From: Acidobacteriota bacterium
GTDB taxonomy: Bacteria; Acidobacteriota; Terriglobia; Acidiferrales; UBA7541
Assembly: GCA_016201285.1 (NCBI GenBank)
Contig: JACQDE010000019.1
Coordinates: 1 to 64,000 of the forward strand
Direction: 5' to 3'
DNA length: 64,000 nucleotides
Shown here: in pieces, positions 26,998 to 52,600 of the stretch
Position numbering within the stretch: the stretch's first letter is position 1
Layout of the letters: each line of letters opens with the position of its first letter
The notes under the pieces: generated by a model
Database searches by the model: none
What the model was told of the DNA's origin: nothing
What the model saw: only the letters and a program-made list of their open reading frames with translations
Program-made: the position numbers and the translations under genes

Positions 26998-28134
26998 ATG
27001 CCTGACGACCTTCTTGGCAAACCGGCGGACGAACTTCGCGCGCTACTCGCGGCGCTGAGCGAGCCCGCCTACCGCGGCGCTCAGGTCTATCACGCGCTCT
27101 ACGCCGAGCGGCGCTTCGATTTTGCCGCGATGACCAACCTGCCCGCGGCGCTCCGCGAGCGCCTCGCGCGCGAGGCGCGCATCGCCCTGCCGCAAATCGT
27201 CAAGCGGTATCACTCCGCCGACGGCACAGTGCGCTATCTGCTTGCTCTGGATGCGGATGTAGGGGCGGACCTGCGTGTCCGCCCGGCCAGCGAGGGCGCA
27301 CACATCGGTCCGCCCCTACGTGAGCAATGCAAACCCACCACGATTGAGACCGTGTTCATGCCGGAAGAAAGCCGGCAAACGATTTGCATCTCGACGCAGG
27401 CGGGTTGCGCGGTGGAGTGCCGTTTCTGTCTGACGGCGACGCTGGGATTGATTCGCAATCTAACGGCGGGAGAGATCATCGGGCAGGCGCTCGTTGCGCT
27501 CGAGGAAAATCGCGCCGCGCTCAAGCCGCAGACCAACGTGGTGCTGATGGGCCAGGGCGAGCCGCTGTTGAACTACGACGCGGTGCTGGCCGCCGTGCGC
27601 ATCCTGCTCGACGCGAACGGCGCGGCGCTTTCGCCGAAGCACGTTACGCTGTCGACCAGCGGCATCGTCCCCGGCATCGAGCGCCTGGCGCAAGAAAAGA
27701 TTCGCCCCAAGCTGGCCGTCTCGCTCAACGCATCATCCGACGTGCAGCGCGACCTGATCATGCCCATCAACAAAAGGTATCCGCTGGAAAAACTGCTCGA
27801 GGCTTGCCGCAGCTATCCGCTGCGCCCGTGGGAGAAGCTGACGTTCGAATACGTGCTGCTCGGCGGGTTCAACGATTCACCGGAGGACGCGCGCCGCGTC
27901 GCGCGCCTGCTCGCGAATCTGCGCTGCAAGGTGAACCTGATTCCGTGGAACCCCGGGGAGCTGCCCTACGAGCCGCCCAACGCCGAACGCATCGAGGAGT
28001 TCCGCCGCATCCTCACCGAAAAAAGTCTGCCGGCGTTTGTGCGCACCTCGCGCGGGCAGGACATCATGGCCGCCTGCGGACAGCTTGCCCTGCTCGAATC
28101 CGCCGGCGCCGCGCTCACACAAATCACGCCGTAG
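26998..28134 (+). CDS. rlmN: 23S rRNA (adenine-2503-C2)/tRNA-37 methyltransferase, radical SAM
   Basis: 378 residues. RlmN methylates C2 of A2503 in 23S rRNA (and A37 in some tRNAs) with a radical SAM mechanism. The cluster-binding CxxxCxxC is C137, C141, C144 (GCAVECRFC). Also conserved are MGQGEPLLN, LSTSGIVPGI, LAVSLNA and the C-terminal TSRGQDIMAACGQL containing the methyl-carrying Cys. Residues about 87-112 (from DVGADLRVRP to EQCKPT) are not part of the family. They are encoded by an in-frame palindromic repeat at 27259-27319, placed between the N-terminal accessory domain and the radical SAM barrel. A REP palindrome precedes the start and a BIME begins at the stop codon. Confidence 0.93.
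   Translation: MPDDLLGKPADELRALLAALSEPAYRGAQVYHALYAERRFDFAAMTNLPAALRERLAREARIALPQIVKRYHSADGTVRYLLALDADVGADLRVRPASEGAHIGPPLREQCKPTTIETVFMPEESRQTICISTQAGCAVECRFCLTATLGLIRNLTAGEIIGQALVALEENRAALKPQTNVVLMGQGEPLLNYDAVLAAVRILLDANGAALSPKHVTLSTSGIVPGIERLAQEKIRPKLAVSLNASSDVQRDLIMPINKRYPLEKLLEACRSYPLRPWEKLTFEYVLLGGFNDSPEDARRVARLLANLRCKVNLIPWNPGELPYEPPNAERIEEFRRILTEKSLPAFVRTSRGQDIMAACGQLALLESAGAALTQITP
27259..27319. repeat. BIME-like element inserted in frame in rlmN
   Basis: Outer perfect 12-bp arms GTAGGGGCGGAC (27259-27270) and GTCCGCCCCTAC (27308-27319), with an inner hairpin GGCGGAC/GTCCGCC at 27264-27283. The ends are GTAG and CTAC, as in the elements at 28134-28204 and 29205-29269. Confidence 0.85.
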
Positions 28135-28204
28135 TAGGACAGACGTCCACGCTTGTCCACTGCCGAAGCTTGCAGGAGTGGACAGGCCTGGAGGCCTGTC
28201 CTAC
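28134..28204. repeat. BIME-like element between rlmN and pgeF
   Basis: Outer arms GTAGGACAG (28134-28142) and CTGTCCTAC (28196-28204), with inner hairpins built on GACAGACGTCCACGCTTGTC and on GGACAGGCCTGGAGGCCTGT. It fills the whole gap between the convergent genes. The rlmN stop ends on its first base, and the pgeF stop TAG is part of its right end. Confidence 0.85.
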
Positions 28205-29139
28205 ACGCGGATTCCGATCACACCCATCAGGCGGCCGGTGCGGCCGAATTCGGCGCGGTGGCTGAAGAGAATGTCCTTGCGGCAGGCGGTGCAGAGATTG
28301 CTCGCAAGAATATTCGCGGTGGGCACGCCGGCATGTTCGAGTTGCCAGCGGTTGGCGGCGAGCAAATCAAGATGCACGGAAGGCGGAGGCGGCTGGTGGC
28401 CGGGCGGGTGCATGTTGAGCCACTGGAGGGGGTTCGGCGTGTCGTCGCTGACGAGGCGCTCGAAGGGGCCTTCGAACCACTCCGCGGCGTGCGCGAATTG
28501 CGAATGGAACGCCTGCGCAACTTCCGCGCCGACTTCGTAGCAGCCGCGGCCGATGCCCGGGCCGAGCACGGCGAGAACGTCACGCGGGCACGTGCCGAAC
28601 GTCATGCGCATTTTCCCTAGCGTTTTTTCGGCGATGCGCGCGAGCGTGCCGCGCCACCCGGCGTGCACCGCGGCCACCGCGCGGCGCTTCGTGTCCGCCA
28701 GCAGGATGGGCACGCAGTCGGCCGTGAGCACGGCCAGCAGCAACCCCGGCGTGCGCGTGATGAGCGCGTCGCCCTTTACGGGTTGCTCGGGCGCGGCATC
28801 GAGCACGCGCGTCAACGTCGAATGAAACTGCCGCTGCGAGACAATCTGCATCGGCTTCGCGCCAAGTGCTGTGAGCAGTTTTCCCCGGTTGGCGAGCACG
28901 TTTTCGCGCGTGTCCCAGTCGGTGCGGCCGAGATTGAAGACGCGCTTTCCATCGAGCATGCTCGCGCCGCCCGGGCGCAGCGTGAACCCGTGCACCAGCC
29001 AGGGAATTTTTCCGAGCGCGCCGGCTTCGAGGATCTGCACGCCCTGCGCGCGCCGCGTGCGCCAGACGGCCGCGGCAAGCTTGGCCCGCCGCATGACGGT
29101 TGTCTTGCGCGCAGTCTTAGAAAGGGCTCTGGTCTTCAC
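28201..29139 (-). CDS. pgeF: Laccase-domain purine nucleoside phosphorylase (PgeF/YfiH family)
   Basis: 312 residues as drawn. The family motifs are clear: FNLGRTDWDTRENVLANR, QFHSTLTRV, LTADCVPILLAD (zinc Cys), AAVHAGWRGTLA (zinc His), GPGIGRGCYEVG, and a C-terminal AGVPTANILASNLCTAC with FSHRAEFGRTGRLMGVI. These proteins are purine nucleoside phosphorylases or adenosine deaminases, formerly called polyphenol oxidases. The first 30 residues are poorly conserved and basic; the start is GTG at 29139, with an ATG at 29094 also possible. The stop codon lies inside a dispersed repeat. Confidence 0.9.
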   Translation of the reverse strand: MKTRALSKTARKTTVMRRAKLAAAVWRTRRAQGVQILEAGALGKIPWLVHGFTLRPGGASMLDGKRVFNLGRTDWDTRENVLANRGKLLTALGAKPMQIVSQRQFHSTLTRVLDAAPEQPVKGDALITRTPGLLLAVLTADCVPILLADTKRRAVAAVHAGWRGTLARIAEKTLGKMRMTFGTCPRDVLAVLGPGIGRGCYEVGAEVAQAFHSQFAHAAEWFEGPFERLVSDDTPNPLQWLNMHPPGHQPPPPSVHLDLLAANRWQLEHAGVPTANILASNLCTACRKDILFSHRAEFGRTGRLMGVIGIRV

Positions 29140-29204: not shown

Positions 29205-29269
29205 GTAGCGCAGCCACTCCTGGCTGCGCAATTTGTGCTGCCCGGCGCAGGCAAGAGTGCCTGCGCTAC
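29205..29269. repeat. BIME-like element upstream of acpS
   Basis: Outer arms GTAGCGCAG (29205-29213) and CTGCGCTAC (29261-29269). Two inner hairpins have perfect 9-bp arms: GCGCAGCCA/TGGCTGCGC (29208-29229) and GCGCAGGCA/TGCCTGCGC (29245-29266). Same design as the elements at 27259 and 28134, but with a different core sequence. Confidence 0.85.
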
Positions 29270-29677: not shown

Positions 29678-29760
29678 GCAAAAATAGAAAAGGGAAAATA
29701 GAAAATAGGCTCCCTGGCAAGCTCTTCCTCTTTTCTAATTTCTATTTTCTATTTTCGCTT
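29678..29760. repeat. AT-rich inverted repeat, probable bidirectional terminator
   Basis: AAAATAGAAAAGGG and GAAAATAGAAAATAGG on the left are complementary to CCTCTTTTCTAATTTC and TATTTTCTATTTTCG on the right. The long AT-rich stem, with T-runs on both strands, lies between convergent acpS and mtaB. The last codons and stop of mtaB are inside the right arm. Confidence 0.7.
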
Positions 29761-31207
29761 CTGTGGACAATTCCCCGAAAAGGCCTTCGCCATTGGCTGC
29801 CAGACTCACTTCGAGAAACTGATTGCGTGAGAGATGGCCGGCCACCCGGAGTTGGAGATAGTTGTCGCTGAGGGCGGCGGTCCAGGGGCCGGAAGAATCT
29901 TCGCCCTGCTCGCGCAGAGTGAGGACGCGGAGCGTCGAGCCGCTCTGCGCGGCGCGGAAGGCGGCTTTCTTTGCTTCCGCGAGCGCGCGCAATTCCCGGC
30001 TGCGTTGTTTGATCACCTGCGGTGAAACTTCAAGAGAAGTGCCGGCCTCCCTCGGCTTCGCTCTGGACAAGTTCCGGCCGGCGCTACACAGCTTCTCGGC
30101 AGCGGTGCCCGGACGCTTCGAAAACGAAAAGACATGCAGGTAACTCAACGGCAACCGCTCGACAAATTCCATCGTGGCGCGATGGTCAGCGTCGGTTTCG
30201 CCCGGAAAGCCGGCAATCACGTCCGCGCCGACGGCCGCGGCGGGAATTATTTCCCGAATCAGCTCGATTTTGCGCGCGTAGTGTGCAGCGCGGTACCAGC
30301 GGTGCATCGCCGCGAGAACGCGGTCGGAGGCGGATTGCAGCGGGATGTGGAAGTGCCGCGCAACGCGGCCGGATAAAGCAACGAGATCAACAAGGTCCTG
30401 CGTTACGTCCTGCGGCTCAATCGAGGAAAGGCGGAGGCGCTCGAGCGGCGTTTCGTCGAGGATGCGCCGCGCCAGGTCAATCAACTCGACGCGCGGGGCG
30501 AGGTCGCGGCCGTAGCTGCCGAGGTTGATGCCGCTCAGCACGATTTCCTGGTAGCCCGCGCTGGTGAGCTTGCGGATTTCCTCGATCACGCGCGCCGGAG
30601 TGAGGCTGCGGCTTCTTCCGCGAACGAACGGAATCACGCAGTACGAGCAGCGGTTGTTGCAGCCATCCTGAATTTTCAAGATGGGGCGCGTGTGGCCTGC
30701 CCCGAGCGAGGCCGAGGGGTCGCTCTCGCCCCCGAAAATCGGCGCGACGAGCACCTCGGTCTGCGCGAAGATGTCGCCAGTGAGAATCTTCGCCGGGGCA
30801 GAAGCGAGGGAAACGAAATCGGACATGCCGGCCTGAAGGCCGGCGCAACAAGTATCCTGAACAGGCCTGAAGGCCTGTCCTACCAGCGCGGCGATTTCGG
30901 TTTTGTGGGAGTTGCCGACCACCCACGCGACGCCTTGGATCTGCGCCAATTCCTCCGGCGCGCGCTGGGCGTAGCAGCCGGTGACGATGATGCGCGCCTG
31001 CGGATTCTCCGCATGAAAGTGCCGAATGGCCTGGCGGGCCTGCGAATCGGCGTTGGCGGTGACGGTGCACGTGTTGATCACCACCACGTCCGCGCCCGCT
31101 GCGCCAGCGGCGGGCGCGAAGCCGCGCTCGACGAGTTGCCGCTCGATGGCGGCGGCATCGGCCTGCGTGGCGCGGCAGCCGAATTGCTCGATGTGGAAGG
31201 TAGCCAT
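29735..31207 (-). CDS. mtaB: tRNA threonylcarbamoyladenosine methylthiotransferase
   Basis: 490 residues, about 50 longer than usual for MtaB. It adds a methylthio group to t6A37 of tRNA with two iron-sulfur clusters: C11, C47, C78 in the N-terminal UPF0004 domain, and C183, C187, C190 (DGCNNRCSYC) in the radical SAM domain. RLSSIEPQDV, HFHIPLQSASDRVL and GADVIAGFPGET confirm the group, and a TRAM domain ends the protein. Three segments look like in-frame palindromic insertions: about 109-130 (GQAFRPVQDTCCAGLQAG), 160-174 (ESDPSASLGAGHT) and 373-394 (CSAGRNLSRAKPREAGTS). All fall between domains or in loops. The final STEAKIENRN is encoded by the flanking AT-rich repeat. Confidence 0.92.
   Translation of the reverse strand: MATFHIEQFGCRATQADAAAIERQLVERGFAPAAGAAGADVVVINTCTVTANADSQARQAIRHFHAENPQARIIVTGCYAQRAPEELAQIQGVAWVVGNSHKTEIAALVGQAFRPVQDTCCAGLQAGMSDFVSLASAPAKILTGDIFAQTEVLVAPIFGGESDPSASLGAGHTRPILKIQDGCNNRCSYCVIPFVRGRSRSLTPARVIEEIRKLTSAGYQEIVLSGINLGSYGRDLAPRVELIDLARRILDETPLERLRLSSIEPQDVTQDLVDLVALSGRVARHFHIPLQSASDRVLAAMHRWYRAAHYARKIELIREIIPAAAVGADVIAGFPGETDADHRATMEFVERLPLSYLHVFSFSKRPGTAAEKLCSAGRNLSRAKPREAGTSLEVSPQVIKQRSRELRALAEAKKAAFRAAQSGSTLRVLTLREQGEDSSGPWTAALSDNYLQLRVAGHLSRNQFLEVSLAANGEGLFGELSTEAKIENRN
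30039..30087. repeat. Palindromic insertion 3 in mtaB (C-terminal)
   Basis: GTGCCGGCC (30039-30047) and GGCCGGCGC (30076-30084) are near-perfect arms. On the - strand the element begins GTAG (30087-30084). It is in frame and encodes SAGRNLSRAKPREAGT. Confidence 0.75.
30698..30722. repeat. Palindromic insertion 2 in mtaB (middle)
   Basis: On the + strand: GGCCTGCCCCGAGCGAGGCC then GAGGG. It is an imperfect palindrome, in frame, encoding PSASLGAGH just before the radical SAM cluster. It is related to the spacer element at 23723-23775. Confidence 0.55.
30827..30883. repeat. Palindromic insertion 1 in mtaB (N-terminal)
   Basis: Two perfect 8-bp hairpins: GCCGGCCT/AGGCCGGC (30827-30844) and ACAGGCCT/AGGCCTGT (30861-30878), each with a GA loop. 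The right one continues into CCTAC, so it reads GTAGG then the hairpin on the - strand. It encodes QAFRPVQDTCCAGLQAGM in frame. Confidence 0.85.
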
Positions 31208-46658: not shown

Positions 46659-49600
46659 ATGAGTCTTCCATCGCGGCAAGTCTTTGATACCAATTCGAAA
46701 TCCGCTGGTCACCTGTGGGCCATTGTACTGATCGTGGCGCTGGGCCTGCTCCAGACCGCATGTGGTGGGGGATTCGCCCCGCCGGGCAGCCAGCCTGGTT
46801 TCGGCAACAATGCTGGCGGAGGCGGCGGCGGCACAATTACGGTTCCCCCGGCGGGGCTTCGCCTGACGCTTTCGCCCGCCTCGGCCAGCGTGGCGCCGGG
46901 CGGCCAGGTGCAGTTGAACGCCGTCATTCAAAACGCAACGAATCCCACGCTCAACTGGGCGGTGAACGGCGTGCCCGGCGGCAACCTGACGGTGGGCACC
47001 ATCAGCAGCACCGGCGCCTACCAGGCGCCCACGGTAGCACCCACTCCGAACACGGTTACGGTGACCGTCACCAGCCAGCAGGATCCGACCAAGTCCGCCT
47101 CGTCTTTGATCGTCATCACCACGCCGCCGACGCCGGTGTCCGTCAGCGTGAGTCCGGCCACCGCCACGCTGCAGACCGGTTCGGTGACGGCGTTCAACGC
47201 GCTCGTCACCGGCACAATAAACACCGCCGTGACCTGGAGCGTGAACGGCGTTCCCGGCGGAAGCGCCACGGTCGGCACGATTACGGCCGCCGGCGTGTAC
47301 ACGGCGCCGGCCAGCGTGCCCGCGCCGGCCACGGTGAGCGTCACCGCCACCAGCGCGGCGGATCCCACCGCCTCGGGCGCGGCCTCGGTGACCATCCAGC
47401 AGCGGGTGCAGGTAAGCGTCTCGCCGGGCAGTGCGCAGGTGTTGACGACGGCGAGCCAGCAGTACACGGCCGCAGTAAGCGGCACAGCCAACATGAACGT
47501 CACGTGGGGCGTCAACGGCATCGCGGGCGGCAACGCGACCTTCGGCACGATTGATAACACCGGCCTCTACACTGGGCCAAACGCCGTGCCTACACCCACC
47601 ACCGTCACCATCAGCGCCACCAGCGTAGTGGATCCCACGGCCATCGGATTTGCCAGCGCCACGATTCTGCTTTCGCCGGGCGTCACTGTCACGGTCACGC
47701 CGGCCAGCGCCACCGTCTCCATCAACCAGACGCTGCAACTCACGGCCACCGTGGCCGGTCTTTTCCGCGGACTGCCACCTTCGCAGCAGGTGACGTGGTA
47801 CGTGAGCACCGTGGTCGGCGGCAATCAGACGGTGGGCTTCATCTCGCCCGCCGGACTCTACACCGCGCCGGCCGCAGTGCCGTTCCCCAACACCGTCACC
47901 ATCCAGGCCTTCAGCGTCACCGACAACACCGCCGTGGGCACGGCGGTTGTGACCATCACGGCGCCGACGCTGGTCACCGTCACGGTTGCGCCCGCCACCA
48001 CCTCCGTCCAGGTGGGCACTTCGCAGACCTTCAGCGCCACGGTGGGCGGCACTTCGAATACAGCGGTCTCTTGGAGCGTGAACGGCATCCCGGGCGGCAA
48101 CGCCACTGTCGGCACGATCACGGCGGCGGGCATTTATACCGCGCCGGCTTCCGTGCCCTCGCCGGCTACGGTCACCGTGACCGCGACGAGTTCCGCGGAC
48201 CCGAGCGCCTCTTCGACCGCGCAGGCCACCATCCTGGCTGCGCCGGTGCCGATCGCCGTTTCCGTCAACCCCGGCAGTGCGAGCCTGAATCTGCAGCAGC
48301 AATTGCAGTTCAACGCCACCCTCACCGGCACCACCAACCAGGCGGTGACGTGGGCCGTGAACGGCGTCACCGGCGGCAACGCTACCGTCGGCACAGTTTC
48401 CGCGGCGGGTGTGTACACGGCCCCGGCCACGCTGCCTTCCCCGGCGACGGTCACCGTGCGCGCCACCAGCGTGGCGGACAACACGAAGTTCGCCACCGCC
48501 AGCGTCACGCTTCTGCCGCCTTCGACGATTTCGCTCACGCCGTCTGCCACCACCGTGCAGGTCGGCCTTGGCGCGCAGTTTTTCGCCACCGTCACCGGCG
48601 TTGCCAACACCGCCGTCAACTGGGCCGTCAACGGCATCGTCGGCGGCAACAGCACCGTAGGCACGATTGACGCCAACGGCCTCTACATCGCCCCGGCCGC
48701 CGTGCCGACACCGAATCCGGTCAGCATCACCGCCACCAGCGTGGCCAATTCGAACCTGGTGGCCACTTCGACGGCCACGATTGCTGTGCCGGTCACGGTC
48801 ACCGTGGCGCCCGCCACCGCCACGCTTGCGCTTTCTGCCACGCAGCAGTTCACCGCGACCGTCACCGGCACCGCCAACACTGCCGTGACTTGGAGCGTGA
48901 ACGGCATCGCGGGCGGCAACGCCACCGTCGGCACCATTGACAACACCGGCTTCTACACTGCGCCAGCCAGCTTGCTGTTGAGCGGCAACTTCACGATCAC
49001 CGCCACCAGCGCCGCCAACCCCACGCAGACCGGGACGGCCTCGGTGCTCGTCACCGTTCCTGTAGCCGTTTCGATTTCGCCGCTCACGCCGAGCGTGCAG
49101 GTGAGCAACACGCAGCAGTTCAGCGCCACCGTTACCGGCACGGCCAACACCGCCGTGACGTGGAGCGTCACCGGCGCGGGCTGCGTCGGCCCTGCCTGCG
49201 GCACGATTACCGCCGGCGGTCTCTATGCCGCTCCAGTCACGGCCCCGGCGCCGAACACGGTCACGGTAAAAGCCACCAGCGTCGCCGACATTACGAAGTT
49301 CGCGTCCACCACCGTCACCATCACCACGCCGCCCATTTCCGTATCGGTGAATCCGGCCACGGCCACGGTTTCCGCCAACGGCAGCCTGCAATTCGCCGCC
49401 ACGGTGGCCAACTCGTCGAACCAGAGCGTCACGTGGACGGTCACCGGCACAGGCTGCGCCGGTCCGGCTTGCGGCGCGATCAGCGCTGCGGGCCTGTACA
49501 CCGCGCCCGCGCTGGCGCCCACGCCGAATACGGTGACCGTCACCGCCACGAGCGTAGCCGACAACACCAAGTCCGCTTCGGCCACGGTCACCATCCTGGC

Positions 49601-52600
49601 CGTCGTTTCCGTCACGGTGAGTCCGACCACCGCCTCAGTCCTCGCCGGCGGCACGCAGCAGTTCACGGATACCGTCACCGGCACCACAAACACAGCGGTC
49701 ACCTGGAGCGTGACCGGCAGCGGCTGCGCCGGCGCCACCTGCGGCACAATTTCCGCGACGGGCCTCTACACCGCCCCGACGGTCGCGCCAACGCCCAACA
49801 CGGTGACGGTGCGCGCCACCAGTGTGGCCGACAACACGAAATTCGCCACCGCCGCGGTGACCATCTCCATCATCAGCGTGACGGTGAATCCAGCTATCGC
49901 AAACGTCTCCGCCAGCGGCAGCCTGCAATTCAGCGCTGTAGTCAACGGCAGCGTGAATCAGAGCGTGACGTGGAGCGTCACCGGCACCGGTTGCGCCGGC
50001 GCCGCCTGCGGCACGATCACCGCGGCCGGCCTCTACACCGCACCGGCTGTTGCGCCTGCACCCAACACCGTGACGGTGCAGGCGACCAGTGTGGCCGATA
50101 GCACCAAGTCCGCGACTTCCACCGTGACCATCGTCGCAGTGATCGCGGTCTCGGTGAGTCCCAGCAGCGCCAACGTGCTCACCAACGGGACACAGCAGTT
50201 CACCGCCACCGTCACCGGCTCCGCCAACACTTCGGTCGCCTGGGACGTGAACGGCGTGGCGGGCGGGAACGCCACTGTCGGCACGATTTCTGCCGCCGGC
50301 CTCTACACCGCGCCGGCCGCGGTGCCTTCGCCGGCGACGGTGACGGTGCGTGCCACCAGCGCCGCGGACAACACCAAGTCCGCTACGTCCTCCGTCACGA
50401 TTGCCGCGCCGGTGATTTCCGTGAGCGTGAACCCGGGCACGGCCAGCGTCTCCGCCAGCGGCAGCGTGCAGTTCAATGCCACGGTGAGCGGCACGGCGAA
50501 TCAGAGCGTCACTTGGACCGTGACCGGCGCGGGCTGCGCCGGCGCCGCCTGCGGCGCCATCTCCGCCGCGGGTTTCTATACCGCGCCGGCCATTGCGCCC
50601 TTCCCGGCGAGCGTGACAGTGACCGCCACCAGCGTGGCGGACAACACCAAGTCCGCTATCGCCAGCGTGACCATCGTTGCCATCATCGCCGTCGCCGTCA
50701 GTCCCAACTCGGCCACTGTGCTGACCGGCGCAACGCAACAGTTCACCGCCACCGTCACTGGCTCCGCCAACACCATCGTCACTTGGAGCGTGTCCGGCTC
50801 CGGGTGCAGCGGGATCGCCTGCGGGACCGTCAGCGCCACGGGCCTCTACACCGCGCCGGGGGCAGTGCCTTCGCCCGCCACGGTCAGCGTCACGGCGACG
50901 AGCGTGGCCGACGGCACTAAGTCCGCTTCCGCCACGGTCACCGTGGCCGCGCCTATTTCCGTCAGCGTGGCGCCCGCCATCGTCAGTCTAGTCACCAGCC
51001 AGAGCCAGCAGTTCACCGCCACCGTCAGCGGCACCACGAACCAGACGGTCACGTGGAGCGTGAACGGCGTCGTGGGCGGCAATGCCGCCAACGGCACGAT
51101 CAGCCCCTCCGGCTTCTATCGCGCCCCGGCGCTCGTGCCGACGCCAAACACCATCACCATCACCGCCACCAGCGCCGCCGACTCGACAAAGACCGCTTCG
51201 GCCACGGTGACGATTACTTCGCCGCCGGTGGGCGTGCTCGTCTTCGTCTTCCCGAAGAACCGCAACCTGCCCATCGGGCGCACGCAGCAGTTCACCGCGG
51301 AAGTGATCCGCGCACCCAACAACGCCGTCAACTGGACCATTGGCGGAACTGGCTGCGCCGGTGCGGGCAACCCCTGCGGCACGATCAGCGCGACGGGCCT
51401 CTACACGCCGCCGGCCACACCTCCGGCGCCGGCCAGCATCACCATCACCGCCACCAGCCAGGTGGACGCGACCGCCTCGCAGACAGTGAACGCGAAGATC
51501 GTGGTGGGCGTCAGCATTTCGCCGTCCTCGGCGAAGCTCAATCCGAAGGGCACGCAACAGTTCACGGCCGCGATTGCCGGCTCGGCGAACACCAGCGTCA
51601 CTTGGGCCGTGGTCGGCAGCGGGTGTTCCTTGCCCGGCAACCCGTGCGGCACGATTTCCGCCACCGGCCTCTACACAGCGCCCAGCTTCGTGCCGCGCCC
51701 GGGCATGTTCACCATCACCTCTACCAGCGCCGCTGATCCCACCGAACCGGGCGTCGCCACCATCGAGATCTTGCCCGCCAGCGTGCAAATCTCTCCGGCC
51801 ACCGTGCAGGTGTTGCCCGGCGGGCAGATGCAGTTCATCGCCGTGACTAACATCTACCCGCCGCCGGTTTCCACCCAGCCGGTTCTTACCTGGTCAGTGA
51901 ATGGCGTCGTGGGCGGCAATGCCACCCTCGGCACGATTTCAACATCCGGGCTCTACATCGCCCCGCAGACAGTTCCTACGCCCGCCAGCATCACTGTGGC
52001 CGCCGCCAGCACGGTCACGCCGACGACGACTGCCAGCTCGACGGTCACCATCGGCGCGCCCACCGGCGCCAGCCCTGTGACCCTGCTTCCGAGTCTCCAG
52101 AAGGTACGGCCCTACGATGTCCCCACGGGCGCCGCCACGCTCACGGTCACTGCCGCCGGGAACCAGTACGCCTCCTGGCAGGTGCTTATCGAGGGCCGCA
52201 ACGAAGACCTCACCGGCGTGGACGTCACACTGAGCGACTTCACCGACACCAGCGGCAACCGCATCACCGCGGCCAGCAACGCCGTCATCTATCTCGAGAA
52301 ATTCATCAACGTGCCCTACGTCTCGCGTGCGCAGAGCGTGCCGGGCGAATGGCCCGATCCACTGGTCCCGAAGAAGGACCCGTTCGCCAACGAGGTCCGC
52401 AACGCCTTCCCGTTCGGCGTGAACCGCATCTCGCCGGCCCACAAAATCTATCCGCGCTTGGCGGGCGACACAGTGAATACCGGCATGGGCGACGGGCGTG
52501 TGGCCCCCGGCGGCGTCTCCACGGCCAGCAGCTTCCGTTTCTTCGTGGTCACTATTGACCGCGCCGGTACGATTGGCGCAGGCTCCGCCACCTTCAAGTG

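Follow-up and report, generated by a model that had tools for sequence, protein, structure and literature searches.

How do palindromic DNA segments come to lie, in frame, within a tRNA-modifying enzyme? A sequence-only reading of the window (here, the whole 64,000-nt stretch of Acidobacteriota DNA that was analyzed) had proposed that mtaB tolerates three such segments and that they represent a mobile repeat turned into part of a protein. All three segments were recovered, in about the span it gave, and they resolve into five hairpin units of two element kinds, namely GTAG REPs and a 24-bp element. We conclude that the MtaB segments are very probably short mobile hairpin DNAs that inserted in frame and were tolerated in flexible loops. 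The source genome (G000) is an incomplete and fragmented metagenome assembly of 87 contigs, and gene calls throughout were made with a simple codon model. The features discussed below are as follows (window coordinates):

29735..31207, minus strand: mtaB, encoding the tRNA t6A37 methylthiotransferase (490 aa), above the curated cut-off of TIGR01579; it hosts the inserts.
30859..30883, minus strand: site 1a, GTAG REP GTAGGACAGGCCTTCAGGCCTGTTC (GTAG plus hairpin), residues 109-117; the inverted pair that follows the RAYT fragment of C3 belongs to this subfamily.
30826..30849, minus strand: site 1b, second REP, head-to-tail with site 1a, GTTGCGCCGGCCTTCAGGCCGGCA, residues 120-128; its tag, GTTG, is one base off GTAG.
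30696..30719, plus strand: site 2, lone 24-bp CYTG element, CCTGCCCCGAGCGAGGCCGAGGGG on the plus strand, residues 163-171 (DPSASLGAG); 24 nt missing in the congener.
30040..30087, minus strand: site 3, 48-nt composite GTAG REP, residues 374-390; 51-nt gap in the congener, and present in no relative compared.
30048..30071, minus strand: 24-bp CYTG element CTTGTCCAGAGCGAAGCCGAGGGA, nested inside the REP of site 3, in its loop; a match to the 24-bp pattern.
27259..27319, no strand assigned: inverted pair of GTAG REPs, in frame in rlmN, from the REP scan; congeners are without the REP pair.

The host gene was identified by the MtaB equivalog model TIGR01579 (score of 386 against a cut-off of 357 bits), both the UPF0004 and radical SAM domains were found in the protein, and mtaB is a single-copy gene, the remaining matches in the genome having at most 35% identity. 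Outside the inserts MtaB is under purifying selection (dN/dS ~0.11). Its six cluster cysteines (C11, C47, C78, C183, C187, and C190) are all intact, as expected if the segments avoid them, and the proposed location between domains or in loops also held, since the AlphaFold2 model places all three inserts in loops of lower confidence, with site 1 in the interdomain linker. The extents first assigned to the segments were roughly right in position, and the precise residues are those listed above. Insert-bearing proteins are presumably made and functional, with the insertions tolerated because the frame is kept and the loops are flexible, and the residues gained are most probably carried as neutral passengers. 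Beside mtaB, an A/T-rich imperfect inverted repeat with 32-nt arms (29678-29758) lies between convergent gene ends.

We compared MtaB with its counterparts in members of its family and order, among them a congener of G000 (G002), giving no weight to protein alignment rows L019, L022, and L024. In the DNA alignment with the congener, mtaB had gaps of exactly 24 nt (site 2) and 51 nt (site 3). Residues ~374-390 (site 3) occurred in none of the relatives compared, and residues 163-171 (site 2) were missing from the congener and from nearly all other relatives, with L008 and L030 carrying different additional residues at this place. Residues 109-130 (site 1) lie in the linker that joins the radical SAM domain to UPF0004, the length of which is highly variable among relatives; here the congener carries another GTAG hairpin (GTAGCACAGGCTTCCCGCCTGTGC), which begins at the same codon, in a linker of similar length. 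The absence from relatives that had been anticipated for the inserts was therefore complete for site 3 and nearly so for site 2, while site 1 is taken up by a different hairpin in the congener. Because sites 2 and 3 alone add length relative to the congener (25 residues together, with none from site 1), the extra length of MtaB is about 25 residues and not the roughly 50 originally claimed. There is about an even chance that the REP at site 1 goes back to an old insertion which the genus inherited, with a hairpin that has since drifted or been converted, and not to a fresh insertion in this species. The shared codon at which GTAG begins in G000 and G002, with differing stems, fits such descent; against it, other genera of the order have different GTAG hairpins elsewhere in the MtaB linker, and the genome contains each of the two site 1 stem types as a subfamily of its own, so that independent insertion or conversion at site 1 is equally possible.

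The MtaB repeats belong to families that recur across the genome. Segment 1 had 44 own-genome matches and segment 3 had 41 (each count including the query itself), and site 1b (GTTGCGCCGGCCTTCAGGCCGGCA) is comparable to GTAGCGCCGGCCTTTAGGCCGGCA at another genomic location. Sampled genome stretches totalling 324 kb contained 21 GTAG-tagged strict hairpins against ~1.9 expected at the overall tag rate, and the other leading hairpin tags, TAGG and TAGC, each overlap GTAG by one base. Called genes contained 4 of these 21 hairpins, whereas 80% of all GTAG sites fall in coding sequence (p ~3e-9). Sites 1 and 3 begin with GTAG directly 5' of the hairpin, the second unit of site 1 having GTTG in this position. 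Three Y1_Tnp matches were detected in G000 and four in the congener, and RAYT-type genes are flanked by GTAG REPs in both genomes: an inverted pair of GTAGGACAGGCTTTCCAGCCTGTCC, which belongs to the site 1 subfamily, comes after the C3 RAYT gene fragment, GTAGCGCAGCCACTCTTGGCTGCGC pairs lie on each side of the C50 RAYT gene, and the C61 RAYT gene of the congener has its stop codon within a GTAG REP. By analogy with known RAYT systems, the GTAG REPs of sites 1 and 3 would be copied and moved as single-stranded DNA by the Y1/HUH transposases of the genome, and we infer transposition as the cause of the inserts.

Further repeats were observed in the window and beyond it. The TAG stop of ORF 28201-29139 is supplied by a GTAG REP (28177-28204, minus strand), and an intergenic inverted pair of GTAG REPs from another subfamily (GTAGCGCAGCCACTCCTGGCTGCGC; 29205-29269) resembles the C50 RAYT flanks. 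The RNA-modifying radical SAM gene rlmN (26998-28134, plus strand; identified by TIGR00048, above cut-off) lies three genes from mtaB and contains an in-frame REP pair, while a third tRNA-modification gene, queG (L203 / L109, G000 C5), contains at least two in-frame repeat units. At 46954-52031, ~19 direct copies of a ~270-nt repeat (60-80% identity) apparently make up one long repetitive protein.

The MtaB linker itself attracted attention as a recurrent location of hairpins. Across 76 usable MtaB genes, in which the linker makes up 11% of bases, five GTAG hairpins were found in the linker and two (weak) elsewhere in the gene, with a binomial p of 0.0003, or 0.002 with two congeners counted once, in a test that is free of choice for the other four genomes only, as mtaB was chosen because of the finding. 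When all 256 tags were ranked for the linker by the stricter score, GTAG came top. The segments of G000 are not conserved in distant MtaB proteins, yet other GTAG hairpins occupy the site 1 linker in four further genomes (G002, G033, G034, and G037, in addition to G000). This recurrence in five genomes, and the presence of repeats in the RNA-modification genes rlmN and queG as well, could suggest that hairpins are kept for a function in MtaB at the RNA or protein level (e.g., mRNA stability, translation pausing, or a linker role). We consider such a function very unlikely, as the linker hairpins differ between genomes in sequence, orientation, and position, most relatives have none, and unrelated proteins contain translations of the 24-bp element from every one of its six frames. 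Under our preferred reading of tolerated mobile insertions, the recurrent linker hairpins make a further distinction testable, namely site targeting versus mere survival in permissive places.

A second hairpin element, 24 bp long, occupies site 2 and makes up the core of site 3. This element is distinct from the GTAG REPs, with a sequence of approximately CYTGYCCCGAGCGNAGCCGAGGGR, and the pattern CTTGTCCCGAGCGAAGCCGAGGGG matched 39 places in the genome at three or fewer mismatches, including site 2 and the site 3 core, against 0 for a reversed-pattern control. The copies, 39 in all, nearly always start with C-Y-T-G; this foot is followed by the hairpin YCCC-GA-GC-GNA-GC-CGA-GGGR, in which the outer stem (YCCC/GGGR) is accompanied by GA/GA mismatches and the middle of the GNA loop is the most variable position. 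Base pairing is supported by covariation between positions 5 and 24 (Fisher p 0.012) and positions 8 and 21 (p 0.001). The sequence d(GCGNAGC) is a DNA mini-hairpin of unusual stability, and with standard DNA energies the lone 24-mer folds weakly (-1.5 kcal/mol). No transposase was found adjoining the element, and a literature search with the 24-mer sequence returned no paper. Most copies (34 of 39) are stop-free in all six frames, so that survival inside genes is possible; we dropped this openness as a special trait, however, since ~55% of random 24-mers of like composition are also stop-free.

Of the 39 copies, 30 had flanks that were examined, and 21 of these lie in called genes, part of them weak calls or near gene ends. 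This share is not clearly below the coding fraction of 82% (p 0.08) and is well above that of the GTAG hairpins (4/21; Fisher p 0.0005). Exact gains of 8 residues relative to orthologues were found in ETF-QO, HyuB, TrpG, an S9-like beta-propeller protein, a BNR-like protein (a name based on its sequence alone), and MtaB, and for ETF-QO, HyuB, TrpG, the S9-like protein, and MtaB, we identified empty sites in relatives together with exact 24-nt gains. Insertion would thus add exactly 24 nt, and therefore 8 codons, and at this resolution we saw no sign of a target duplication. The element is present in a SpoIIE-type phosphatase of G000 and G001 and missing from that of G002, and this site is therefore polymorphic within the genus. 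These empty sites in other genes, along with a site 3 insert found in no relative, bear out the proposal that mobile repeats have become protein parts: short stretches of several proteins are encoded by selfish repeat DNA with the reading frame kept. That the genome is metagenome-derived raises the question of an assembly artefact, as the assembly is fragmented into 87 contigs and assemblers may be misled by short repeats; we regard this as extremely improbable given that the frame is kept in many genes and that the SpoIIE-type insert is common to the separate genome G001.

Many 24-bp copies are nested in hairpins, either in the loops of GTAG REPs or, following position 9, in further copies of their own kind, and flanks were complementary more often than when re-paired (6 against 1.4 expected in G000, and 10 against 1.6 in other genomes). 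Nesting in hairpins, and in own copies at one position, is what fold-back synthesis might give, and the segments could accordingly stem from local duplication or template switching at hairpins with no mobile element involved. We judge this origin quite unlikely, because copies of one 24-mer occur in unrelated genes with empty sites in relatives, which requires a source copy elsewhere. In a membrane protein of both congeners (L206 in G000 C49, L279 in G002 C82), a GTAG REP that encloses a 24-bp element lies at a similar position and has diverged; this insert is perhaps an old composite common to both.

Among 299 genomes of the class, core copies of the 24-bp element were patchily distributed, with most genomes having none and others as many as 70 (G000, 39; G002, 4; G038, 32; G039, 19; G040, 36; G087, 70; G111, 24). 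In four other genomes and the congener, for which gene calls were trained on little sequence, 10 of 51 copies were coding and most were intergenic (p 1e-5 versus G000). The genic-rich distribution is thus peculiar to G000, and frame-neutral length alone does not explain the abundance of the element in its genes, which weakens that length as a whole explanation for the genic copies. Judged by sequence, an apparent DnaG primase in another family (L298; G040 C66) carries an in-frame 24-bp element. We put forward tentatively, as somewhat less probable than its contrary, that the 24-bp CYTG hairpin represents a class of mobile DNA not described before. Such DNA would insert as precisely 24 nt, frequently at the tips of hairpins (its own among them), and, being frame-neutral, would have become a general source of 8-residue loop insertions for housekeeping proteins in this lineage. 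A fixed, frame-neutral unit of this kind provides natural repeated experiments on how loops tolerate insertions.

In-frame REPs are already known, and the closest comparison for sites 1 and 3 is with the GTAG REPs of RAYT systems, which consist of a tag and a hairpin, are multicopy and mainly intergenic, flank RAYT genes (PMC3733652; REPINs, PMC3116915), and sometimes provide TAG stop codons or sit in frame within genes (PMC3733652). The intragenic REPs described by Di Nocera et al. (2013) include double inserts in uvrA and differing REPs near one place in recB (PMC3733652). The repeats studied here share the tag, copy number, mostly intergenic location, RAYT flanks, TAG stops, and in-frame cases with the systems covered in the consulted parts of that survey; they differ from the GTAG REPs described there in the 24-bp unit nested in the site 3 REP and in the reuse of one MtaB linker across genera (PMC3733652). 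Within the same parts of the survey, Acidobacteria are represented by TIR repeats of Koribacter only, and an earlier listing of acidobacterial intragenic REPs is possible (PMC3733652); our literature search for acidobacterial in-frame palindromes returned general REP papers only.

For the 24-bp element, the class 3 TnpA-associated structures of Acidobacteria (~600 in Solibacter usitatus, with foot CnGA) offer a similar combination of a non-standard hairpin at high copy number in an acidobacterium (PMC6006769), although the foot of the 24-mer is CYTG and no class 3 gene was shown beside it. CGTC REPs are likewise short tagged hairpins, with an 8-9 bp stem that starts with A-T pairs, and RPE-4 and RPE-6 are counted among them (PMC3733652). 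CGTC occurs in some acidobacterial copies of the 24-bp element, in other genomes only, where G000 has TGTC; the tag in all 39 G000 copies is TGTC, TGCC, or GGTC. We rejected the assignment to CGTC REPs, as this tag is absent from G000 and the stem does not start with A-T pairs.

The likeness to the palindromic elements of Rickettsia suggested by the sequence-only reading stands for behavior and not for family, the elements here being GTAG REPs and a separate 24-bp element. The Rickettsia elements are ~150 bp long and encode a conserved peptide (Ogata 2000, 2002, as reviewed in PMC10969869), whereas the element here is 24 bp long, encodes several peptides in six frames, and comes from a different phylum, with no sequence relation shown between the two. 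In both cases, palindromic mobile DNA lies in frame in many unrelated proteins, in loops that tolerate it (PMC10969869), and our data show such protein-coding palindromes in an acidobacterium as well, where relatives provide clean empty sites and one site is polymorphic within a genus.
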